Below are positions 26,204-29,371 of a stretch of 55,890 nucleotides of DNA, piece by piece. Numbering within the stretch: position 1 is the stretch's first letter; every line of letters starts with the position of its first letter. The notes under the pieces are model-generated. The model saw only the letters and a program-made list of their open reading frames with translations. It was not told where the DNA came from and ran no database searches. Source of the DNA: Roseospira goensis (lineage in GTDB: Bacteria; Pseudomonadota; Alphaproteobacteria; Rhodospirillales; Rhodospirillaceae). The stretch spans positions 1 to 55,890 of the forward strand of contig NZ_JACIGI010000024.1 of the NCBI RefSeq assembly GCF_014197795.1. Reading direction: 5' to 3'. The translations under genes and the position numbers were made by a program.

Positions 26204-27424
26204 ATGACCTATCAAGCCGACGACGACCAGTATCCGGCCCGCGCCGTGGTCTTCATCGAGTCCACCTGGGGCACGCAGACCTTCACGGGCACCGGGTTCC
26301 TGGTCGGGCGCAACGATATCGTCACCGCCTCGCACGTCCTGTACGACCAGACCCTCGGCGGGACGCCCGATTATGTCCGTGTCGCGCCGTCGTACGAACC
26401 CGGCGCGCCGGACAACGTATTCTACGACGACTTCCAGTATCACTACTACCCGGACTTCGACCCGGACGGGGACGGCCTGCTGGAGACCGGGGACCTGCGG
26501 CTGAATACCCTGCGCGGCTCCGAGTACGACATGGCGCTGATCTCGCTGCGCGAGCCCGTGGGCGACGTGTACGGCTGGTTCGGCGTCGACCCCGGGTTCT
26601 CCGGCGGGGCCGTCGGGCTGCTGGGCCATCCCGCCCTGTACGGCCGCGCCCTGATGTACGACGGCGGCTCCGTCTGGCATCACAGCCAGGACAGCGTTCT
26701 GTACTACAACAACGACCTGGAGGTGAACCCGGGCAACTCCGGCGGTCCGGTGTACTACGACTACGGCGACGGTCCGTTCGCCGTCGGGGTGGTCTCCACC
26801 GGGCTGGTCGCCACCTCGTTCCGGGATCACTGGTGGTGGATCAGCGACGTGATGACGGAGAACGACGCCCTGCTGGCCGACGGCTCGGCGCCCGACGACG
26901 ACCCGCCGTCCGATCCGTTCGACTCCGCCGATATCGCCGTGTTCAACCTGATGCTCGGCCGCCCGCCGGACGACGCCATCGCGGCCGAGGTCTCCGCCGC
27001 CGCGTGGTCGACCGTGACGGGCACCGCCGCGGTGCTGTCCGCATGGTCGGAGTTCCAGGGCCAGTTCAGCGGCCTGTCCACGCTCGGCGCCAAGATCGAC
27101 GTGATCGTGGTCGGCCACATGGGGCTGTCGCCACAGAGCGCGGGCTACGCGGGCGCGGTCGACTACTTCGAGAGCAGCCTGACGGCCGGGCGCAGCGTTC
27201 CCGACGTGATGGCCGAGGCGGTGCTGTACCTGCTGGACGATGCGCGGCGCCAGGATGCCTACGACGGCGCCGCCGCCACGGTGCTGGAGAGCGGGGCGGG
27301 CTTGGCCGCGCCCCTGCGCCTGGCGGGGGCCGACGCGATCGTCGACGACGGCGGGGTCGCGGTGGTTGGCGCGCGCGATCCGGCCGGCGCGGCGCTGGAG
27401 GGCGCGGACGCGCTGTTCGGCTGA
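26204..27424 (+). CDS. trypsin-like serine protease with a DUF4214-like C-terminal domain
   Basis: The 406-residue protein has an S1-type protease domain in residues 10-215 with an intact triad: His44 in VTASHVL, Asp109 in SEYDMALI and Ser179 in NPGNSGGPV. Residues 84-97 hold a DxDxDG loop like a calcium site. There is no Sec signal. Residues 283-369 align with residues 55-140 of the RTX protein at 4910-6418, and the protein ends ADALFG, similar to that protein's ADLFFA. This suggests type I export without classic RTX repeats. The composition is very acidic. It stands alone; ribosome site GGGGATCGG is weak. The target is unknown. Confidence 0.85.
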   Translation: MTYQADDDQYPARAVVFIESTWGTQTFTGTGFLVGRNDIVTASHVLYDQTLGGTPDYVRVAPSYEPGAPDNVFYDDFQYHYYPDFDPDGDGLLETGDLRLNTLRGSEYDMALISLREPVGDVYGWFGVDPGFSGGAVGLLGHPALYGRALMYDGGSVWHHSQDSVLYYNNDLEVNPGNSGGPVYYDYGDGPFAVGVVSTGLVATSFRDHWWWISDVMTENDALLADGSAPDDDPPSDPFDSADIAVFNLMLGRPPDDAIAAEVSAAAWSTVTGTAAVLSAWSEFQGQFSGLSTLGAKIDVIVVGHMGLSPQSAGYAGAVDYFESSLTAGRSVPDVMAEAVLYLLDDARRQDAYDGAAATVLESGAGLAAPLRLAGADAIVDDGGVAVVGARDPAGAALEGADALFG

Positions 27425-27454
27425 CGCGCTGTTCGGCTGACGCGCTGTTCGGCT
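27407..27454. repeat. 16-bp tandem repeat, three copies, covering the protease stop codon
   Basis: GACGCGCTGTTCGGCT occurs at 27407, 27423 and 27439. Each copy is followed by GA, giving TGA at 27422, 27438 and 27454, one in each reading frame. Each frame therefore ends D-A-L-F-G-stop. Confidence 0.92.
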
Positions 27455-27496
27455 GACCGCGGCGGCCCCTCGCGGCTCCCGCGCCGGCGGCCCCGC

Positions 27497-28381
27497 TCAG
27501 GACCCGGCGGCGGCGGTCGCCCCCACCACGCGCGGTTGTGAGCCGACCTCGGCCAGGATATGCGCCGTCACCCAGGCCCGCAGGAACTCGGCCATGTCCT
27601 CGGTGAAGCGCGGCGGGCGCGGCGCCGCCAGGTGGCGGCTGCGGAAGTCGGTCATGTCCTTGAGCCAGCGCCAGCGGCTGGCGGCCAGCGGCTCGCCGGC
27701 ACCGCGGCCCCAGCGGCCGTCCTCGCGGTCCATGTGGCAGACCGCGCTGGCCAGCAGGCGGTCGAACAGGCGCGCGATCTCGTCGCGGCCGGCGTTGGCG
27801 GCCCAGCGGTCGTGCAGGCTGTTCACCAGGGTCACCAGTTCGCGGTGTTCGGCGTCGGTCTCCGGATCTCCCAGCGCGTAGGCGGCGCGCCAGCGCAGCA
27901 GCGGCCCGGTGGGGCGCTCCGGCTCGGCCACCACCGCGACCACGTCGGCCTGAAGGCCCTTGGGACCCTCGCTGACCGTCATGCGCACCGTCTGGCCCTC
28001 GACCAGATCGAACAGCCCGCATTGTTCCAGCGTGCGCACGTGCACGAACACGTCGGCCTGGTCGCTGTCCCGGGTGACGAACCCGAAGCCTTTGTATGCG
28101 TTGAAGAACTTCACCACGCCGGTGAGGCCCTCGTTCAGCGTCTCCGGGTCGGCGGCACAACTGGGTTCGGGCACCTCCAGCACCGCGTCGATGGTCTGCA
28201 CCTCCCAGCCCTTCGGTCCCTCGATCAGGGTGCAGGTGAGCTGGGTGCCCTCCGGCAAGCGGTCGAGACCGCGGGCCTCGACCGCGGAGACATGCAGAAA
28301 CGCGTCCGGCAGTCCCTCTTCCGGACGGACGAAACCGAAGCCCTTTTTCGGGTTATACCATTTGACGGTGACCTTGGTCAT
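27497..28381 (-). CDS. double cold-shock-domain protein fused to a degenerate hemerythrin-like domain
   Basis: The 294-residue protein has two cold-shock domains, residues 2-68 (KWYNPKKGFGFV, DAFLHVSAV) and 85-152 (VKFFNAYKGFGFV, DVFVHVRTL), each with both RNP motifs for single-stranded RNA or DNA. From about 163 a four-helix hemerythrin-like domain begins: WRAAYALG, DAEHRELVTLVNSLHD, CHMDRED and WVTAHILAE. Of the seven usual iron ligands, His179, His216, Glu220 and His274 are in place. The His-x3-His pair of the third helix and the terminal Asp appear lost. ATG at 28381 follows GGAGGGGG by a normal gap. The combination suggests an RNA-binding protein with a sensor or structural domain. Confidence 0.85.
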   Translation of the reverse strand: MTKVTVKWYNPKKGFGFVRPEEGLPDAFLHVSAVEARGLDRLPEGTQLTCTLIEGPKGWEVQTIDAVLEVPEPSCAADPETLNEGLTGVVKFFNAYKGFGFVTRDSDQADVFVHVRTLEQCGLFDLVEGQTVRMTVSEGPKGLQADVVAVVAEPERPTGPLLRWRAAYALGDPETDAEHRELVTLVNSLHDRWAANAGRDEIARLFDRLLASAVCHMDREDGRWGRGAGEPLAASRWRWLKDMTDFRSRHLAAPRPPRFTEDMAEFLRAWVTAHILAEVGSQPRVVGATAAAGS

Positions 28382-28699
28382 GGTCGTCCCCCTCCGCCCA
28401 CAAAAGGCGCGCTCCAGCACCAAGCGCCTATGAACTATGCAGGGGCACCAGGGATGCTGGCAACCCCACACGCTGGGTAAGCCCGAAAAACCGAGCGGCT
28501 ATGCTACCTCAGGGGAAGCGTTCGGCCGGGCAATGTCAACGCCCAACGGAGGAGATCTCGTTCGTTGGTATAGCGCCTGCGGGACGGACCACCCGCCCCG
28601 GCCACAGCCTCCGGCGTCACGCACCTATGGCCGTATCACCGTCCTTTGGCCTGCTTTCGGGTGTGTCCGGGGGCGAATCGGGTGTCGGTCGCCGCGGCG
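28382..28699. other. 318-base intergenic region upstream of the cold-shock fusion gene
   Basis: This AT-richer stretch should carry the promoter and leader of the cold-shock fusion gene (minus strand). TTGACA reads on the minus strand at 28539-28534, but no good -10 lies 16-18 bases on. The leader can form small stems such as GGGGTTGCC / GGCACC variants near 28445-28470. No gene was recognised. Confidence 0.35.
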
Positions 28700-29371
28700 C
28701 TACCGGGGCACGAAGCGCACCGGGCCGTACCAGGCCCGCCAGGTCCCGCCGCGGTCGTCGCAGTCGGTCATCAGGGCCACGGCGTCGATCGCGTCCACCG
28801 CCAGGTCGTGGAAGCGGCGGAAGTCGGCCCGCACGTCGCGGCGGGCGGTCACCCAGGCGCCCGGCGCGGCCGGTGGCCCGGAGGCCACCGCCACCATGTG
28901 GGCCTGATCGGCGTAGGCATTGGGCCAGTCGGCCCCGGCGGGCTCTCCGGCCGCCCAGACGTAGTTCACCGCCCGCGTGCGCCAGGGCAGCAGACCGCCG
29001 TCCCGGATCACGTACAGCCGTGCCACGTAGTCGTCGCCGGCCTTGGTGCGCTCGCTCGGGCCGGCCGCGGGAACCGCCTCGACACGCCACGACCATTCCA
29101 GGATCGGCGTCTTGGTCAGGTCGACGGTCTGGCGCCGGACCAGGCCGGAGGCGCTGTCGCGGCACGTGGCCCGCAACGCCGGCCGGCCCGCCACGTGGTC
29201 GAGGGCGTAGGCCGTCGTGCCGACGAAGACCTGACGCTCCCAGGCCAGCAGGTCCGCCGGCGCGAACGCGGTCTGCTCGGTTTCTGCGCCGGCCGGCGCG
29301 AGGAGGCCCGTCGCCAGCAGGGCGACGACGGCGGGGACGACTCGGCGCATGACAGGGGCGACTCGGCGCAT
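28700..29371 (-). CDS. DUF3047 family exported protein
   Basis: The 223-residue protein begins with a signal peptide (MRRVVPAVVALLATGLLAP, ending near AGAE) and continues with the DUF3047 pattern: LRATCRDSASGLVRR, PILEWSWRVE, GDDYVARLYVI, AVNYVWAAG and CDDRGGTWRAWYGPVRF at the end. The family is found in periplasmic proteins of unknown function. ATG at 29371 has AAGGA upstream. A second ATG at 29350 lies in a duplicated segment (CGACTCGGCGCATGAC twice, 20 bp apart), so the start was probably created or moved by a small tandem duplication. Confidence 0.85.
   Translation of the reverse strand: MRRVAPVMRRVVPAVVALLATGLLAPAGAETEQTAFAPADLLAWERQVFVGTTAYALDHVAGRPALRATCRDSASGLVRRQTVDLTKTPILEWSWRVEAVPAAGPSERTKAGDDYVARLYVIRDGGLLPWRTRAVNYVWAAGEPAGADWPNAYADQAHMVAVASGPPAAPGAWVTARRDVRADFRRFHDLAVDAIDAVALMTDCDDRGGTWRAWYGPVRFVPR

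Follow-up and report, generated by a model that had tools for sequence, protein, structure and literature searches.

The window, i.e., the whole stretch of 55,890 nucleotides analysed here (positions 1 to 55,890 of contig NZ_JACIGI010000024.1 of Roseospira goensis), carries on its minus strand an open reading frame (27497–28381, stop codon included; ATG at 28381–28379) that encodes a protein of 294 residues. Profile matches place two cold-shock domains (CSDs) at the beginning of this protein, the first at residues ~3–66 (28184–28375, minus strand), with the motifs KGFGFV and DAFLHV, and the second at residues 87–149 (27935–28123, minus strand), with KGFGFV and DVFVHV; these hexapeptides are RNP1- and RNP2-like. 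A fast-evolving linker (residues 67–86; 28124–28183, minus strand) separates the two CSDs, and a short conserved junction (residues 150–165; 27887–27934, minus strand) leads from the second CSD to a C-terminal hemerythrin-like domain (residues ~161–279; 27545–27901, minus strand), so identified by Pfam, NCBIfam, a PDB profile search and hhalign. The Pfam CSD profile (PF00313) matches in two stretches with a score of 109.4 bits (cut-off: 27), which makes the protein a member of that family; it is not a tandem CSD protein over its whole length, since 138–142 residues follow the second CSD in the six complete copies known.

The assignment of the C-terminal part to hemerythrins is weak when it relies on the Pfam match of the window protein alone, but firm once the orthologues are considered, owing to the hhalign and PDB profile matches. 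PF01814 is matched at residues 175–278 with 25.7 bits, a margin of 0.4 bits above the cut-off (25.3), while the two NCBIfam profiles, TIGR02481 (E-value: 1.7e-11; 44.3 bits) and NF033749 (E-value: 5.8e-12; 45.9 bits), both fall below their curated cut-offs (51.75 and 84 bits, respectively). In all six orthologues scanned, both CSD and Hemerythrin were matched at E ≤ 0.01. When the six orthologous domains were aligned by hhalign to eight unfused bacteriohemerythrins, the probability reached 99.5% (E-value: 8.6e-23), and a profile of the orthologue domain returned four PDB sequences at E ≤ 0.1, all of them bacteriohemerythrins, the best being 4XPX of Methylococcus capsulatus (E-value: 9.2e-9). 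The homology with single-domain bacteriohemerythrins is domain-wide, those of the same order (L057–L069) being 30–34% identical to the fused domain, and we infer that the hemerythrin half has a helical-bundle fold. Five further hemerythrin matches were found in the same genome, each with all seven iron ligands.

The fused domain departs from these relatives at its iron site. The pattern across the seven ligand columns is H,H,E,-,R,H,- in the complete fused copies, and the copy truncated at the end of its contig agrees with it in H,H,E,-,R (the 20 fused rows of the alignment are repeats of seven genes, two rows being this cut G006 copy). In contrast, the 20 unfused relatives compared (five from the same genome, the other 15 taken from the best matches elsewhere) all retain six or seven of the seven ligands, as do the single-domain L057–L069, with H,H,E,H,H,H,D in 13 of them and a Q at the fourth column in seven. 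The four retained positions, all on the minus strand, are His179, the first conserved His (27845–27847), His216 (27734–27736), Glu220, the bridging Glu (27722–27724), and His274 (27560–27562); the first three are invariant, and the last is so in the six complete copies (6/6). Both His of the His-x3-His pair and the last Asp are absent from all six complete orthologues, the alignment indicating a loss by a 3-residue deletion combined with substitutions. Just after this deletion, Arg236-Trp237-x-Trp239 (27665–27676, minus strand) replaces the second His of the pair, with Arg236 standing about where that His was in the hhalign register, which is uncertain at the deletion. Leu232, Arg236, Trp237 and Trp239, all within the stretch that corresponds to His-x3-His of the relatives, are invariant among the fused copies. 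The place of the last Asp is taken, in the hhalign register, by Val279 (27545–27547, minus strand; Thr in one orthologue). The five His, one Glu and one Asp that define an O2-binding di-iron hemerythrin are thus incomplete in the fused copies, and without the three missing ligands this domain should be unable to build the classical di-iron O2 site. His179, His216 and Glu220 are presumably ligands of one iron (the Glu being bridging), the lost His having served the other, so that a one-metal (2-His-1-Glu) site is possible from the sequence. The codon of each of the four retained ligands shows synonymous variation among the six complete orthologues; however, 62 of the 119 core columns do not vary, so that a random draw of four would contain invariant columns alone in about 7% of cases, and the invariance of the four ligands is little above background.

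Seven of the 20 unfused relatives, all standalone bacteriohemerythrins (L061, L064–L067, L042, L043), have a Gln instead of the first His of His-x3-His, which suggests that erosion of the site can proceed from there. As for the initial annotation, it had described two intact cold-shock domains followed by a hemerythrin relative that keeps His179, His216, Glu220 and His274 and lacks the His-x3-His pair and the final Asp; this description is borne out by PF00313 matching twice with both motifs present in each domain, by the Pfam, hhalign and PDB profile searches all matching hemerythrin, and by the alignment of the ligand columns.

The fused gene is present in one frame in all seven genomes of the window's genus, its own included, and the six other orthologues are 75–83% identical to the window protein. 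Named carriers are Roseospira marina, R. visakhapatnamensis, R. navarrensis, Rhodospira trueperi and an uncultured Rhodospira MAG, Roseospira and Rhodospira both belonging to the Rhodospirillaceae. Pairwise dN/dS ratios, which are rough because dS approaches or exceeds 1 in many pairs, range from 0.17 to 0.41 in the hemerythrin half (15/15 pairs), indicative of purifying selection, from 0.03 to 0.13 in the first CSD, from 0.05 to 0.41 in the second CSD and from 0.20 to 1.87 in the linker between them (for each of these last three, 14 of 15 pairs were computable, one dS value being −1; the cut copy was excluded from the pairs). Whereas this linker is variable, the junction between the second CSD and the hemerythrin part hardly varies, 11 of its 16 positions being invariant, and its shortness and conservation suggest that the protein works with its two halves in a fixed relative position.

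Outside the genus, no open frame combining a CSD with a hemerythrin domain was found among the matches listed, be it in 99 relatives (own genome included; 92 of them outside the genus), in 385 genomes of the class (own included) or, at E ≤ 1e-20, a threshold reached by 61 of them, in 299 genomes of the phylum (own included). These three samples overlap; as matches are ranked by E-value, a fused protein should rank high, and a divergent one could be missed. Nearly all the listed matches outside the genus cover the cold-shock part, while a few (G018, G035, G094) cover the hemerythrin part alone. Some matches extend to residues 185–199 (G034, G080; also G425, G557) with internal stop codons, the frames ending 0–10 residues past the second CSD. 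A pattern scan of the contigs (239 stretches), which reaches close relatives only, gave five loci, all from Roseospira/Rhodospira. A search with the hemerythrin half alone across the order (318 genomes) placed its 23 best matches without a fusion in frames of 134–194 aa. Another 12 loci were chosen because their frames seemed long or their matches ran on; none of them had a hemerythrin match at E ≤ 1, 11 end 3–10 residues past the second CSD, and one (L090) is still open where its contig ends, 18 residues past it. As for plasmid-borne relatives, 0 of 1438 matching records cover 80% of the query at a single place. The initial annotation had pointed to other Rhodospirillales for the same architecture: it does recur, in seven of seven genomes of the genus, yet it was found only in that genus, so that the order is too wide a frame; the listed matches outside the genus include no other such fusion.

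Three listed places seemed to extend past the second CSD, two of which turned out to be single cold-shock ORFs of 71–79 codons. The third, a tandem cold-shock protein on a Mesorhizobium plasmid (L095:663–1475), has a C-terminal tail of 69 residues, without any hemerythrin match at E ≤ 1.

Unfused tandem CSD proteins of Alphaproteobacteria resemble the fused protein over residues 1–152, where their two CSDs align with up to ~50% identity, but they lack the hemerythrin part, the 39 proteins compared (39/39) all stopping 0–13 residues past the second CSD. In a tree of 46 tandem cold-shock proteins from the fetched loci, mostly best matches (15 loci repeating genes already present were skipped, while a length filter removed none), the CSD parts of the seven fused proteins form one group with a support of 100/99 at the end of a long branch, in line with a probably single origin of the fusion. 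The sister of this group is weakly supported (73/89), which makes the placement of the fused gene among tandem CSD proteins tentative. An ordinary tandem CSD protein without the fusion is encoded in the genus as well; its four copies on the tree fall elsewhere, so the fused gene is present in addition to it.

The 5' leader of the fused gene, also on the minus strand, shows a promoter-like TTGCCA-18-CATAGT (28434–28463), recognised by eye, with TTG[CT]CA in six and CATAGT in four of the six aligned leaders, and a ribosome-binding-like stretch, GGCGGAGGGGG (28388–28398), with GCGGAGGGG in 6/6 aligned leaders. A short hairpin of 5 bp (28409–28427), in which two pairs are changed on both sides among the six leaders, a small sample, is a weak signal and a lead only: the share of pairing cells (96.7%) and the covariation score (0.32) are each reached in 12 of 500 shuffles, while the count of pairs changed on both sides is reached by 99/500 and that of further pair types by 437/500. 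The hairpin is absent from some single-sequence folds, and a search of Rfam over 27400–28720 returned nothing at E ≤ 1. By eye, the four stretches upstream of the putative starts of the genus's unfused tandem cold-shock gene (L079–L082) have no obvious element in common with the leader of the fused gene.

Regarding the gene neighbourhood, the genes next to the fused gene in the window are not beside it in the five named relatives (flanks of ≤ 6 kb). Upstream DNA is common to two loci only (L045 and L047), which have in common a frame of 479 aa at 90% identity and perhaps a second gene; downstream, L045 and L048 (the flank of L047 being ~1 kb only) have related frames (~46% identity) on opposite strands. 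With so few common neighbours across the genus, an operon partner is unlikely to explain the fusion. In the window, the fused gene is adjoined by an open reading frame on the plus strand (26204–27424), likewise not beside it in the five named relatives, the predicted protein of which has a trypsin-like look, with the motif GNSGGP.

The explanation that we favour, and consider likely, is that of a tandem CSD protein that gained a C-terminal bacteriohemerythrin, which then lost its classical di-iron site while staying under selection, and which now most likely forms a helical module. A tandem CSD protein of the RNA- or ssDNA-binding kind would have acquired the domain in the ancestor of Roseospira/Rhodospira, probably once; the acquired domain would then have lost the His-x3-His pair and the last Asp by the deletion and substitutions described above, while staying under selection. 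The cold-shock half very probably binds RNA, most likely single-stranded RNA judging from its family, both single-strand-binding motifs being kept, whereas the hemerythrin half is most likely a compact helical module held near the second CSD by the short junction. This module may be metal-free, serving in packing, dimerisation or contact with a protein partner, or may hold a single metal in the half-site made of His179, His216 and Glu220.

Between these two possibilities, a structural or interaction module appears somewhat more likely than a one-metal sensor. That the domain has become free of metal, with Arg236 pairing with the leftover Glu220 and Trp237 and Trp239 filling the core, so that it would serve packing, dimerisation or protein contact only, is quite possible, though we hold it tentatively. 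It would fit the invariance of Leu232, Arg236, Trp237 and Trp239 where the relatives have their His-x3-His, as well as the replacement of the last Asp by Val or Thr; on the other hand, the register is uncertain at the deletion, the pairing of Arg with Glu is conjectural, and His179, His216 and His274 might be expected to drift once no metal was bound, while none has done so in the six complete copies. The same lack of drift, maintained despite synonymous changes in the codons, speaks for a metal-controlled RNA chaperone, in which His179, His216, Glu220 and perhaps His274 would form a 2-His-1-carboxylate site for a single metal, be it Fe(II), Zn(II) or another, with RNA binding by the adjoining CSDs responding to metal, oxygen or redox state. 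The short and conserved junction also speaks for it, as do three of the retained ligands (His179, His216 and Glu220), which occupy the positions of the ligands of one iron. Nevertheless, this reading strikes us as rather doubtful, for the invariance of the four ligands is near the background (~7%), and the invariant Arg236 and the two Trp, at or beside the ligand places of the other iron, may fill the pocket. Its most specific form, an RNA chaperone with nucleic-acid binding gated by a remodelled mononuclear-metal hemerythrin half-site, responsive to metal or redox and fixed in one purple phototroph lineage, we deem unlikely.

The initial annotation had also named the binding of one metal, the binding of a different ligand and a purely structural role, each of which may apply. 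It had gone further and suggested, as a possible role, an RNA chaperone tuned by oxygen or redox state. This proposal has found no support so far and is weakened with respect to oxygen, as the di-iron site should not form with the His-x3-His pair and the last Asp missing in 6/6 complete orthologues. In particular, a classical oxygen- or redox-sensing hemerythrin joined to an RNA-binding output would have parallels in the fused signalling proteins with hemerythrin domains described in PMC4919030 and PMC9388753, but it appears most improbable given the absence of three of the seven ligands from every complete orthologue. Finally, as the window genome is a draft assembly of 81 contigs, the fusion could be blamed on an error of assembly or annotation that merged two adjacent genes; this is refuted by the same frame in seven of seven separate genomes, with both halves under purifying selection, and its probability is practically nil.

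Altogether, the architecture is new and lineage-restricted while built from known families, the combination and this erosion of the ligands not being described in the literature searched. In a survey of O2-binding hemerythrins (PMC4919030), 56 architectures are counted in long proteins, fusions with MCP and GGDEF being the commonest, along with 106 single-domain sequences with altered ligands. As in the signalling fusions covered there (MCP, GGDEF and others), the hemerythrin of the present protein is an add-on domain, mostly found at a protein terminus; unlike in them, its partner is an RNA-binding fold rather than a signalling output, and its iron site is broken. Cold shock is not mentioned in the main text of that survey, insofar as it was accessible, nor do the words "cold" and "RNA" appear in the accessible part of PMC9388753. 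A dinoflagellate review mentions both a cold shock domain and hemerythrin, its hemerythrin passages, in the part available, concerning another protein. No report of the pairing of cold shock and hemerythrin in one protein was found in the literature searched, of which most subscription papers are not part, nor any paper on bacteriohemerythrin with cold shock protein or on hemerythrin with Roseospira, which agrees with the earlier statement that no described class pairs the two domains.

Through the fusion, the handling of RNA may be coupled to a metal or a protein partner. A metal-sensing domain would make RNA chaperoning directly dependent on iron or redox state. A metal-free one would be a clear example of how a di-iron oxygen carrier became a scaffold, and relatives with complete ligand sets are at hand to compare it with. 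As the protein is small and encoded by a single gene, either reading is testable at the bench.
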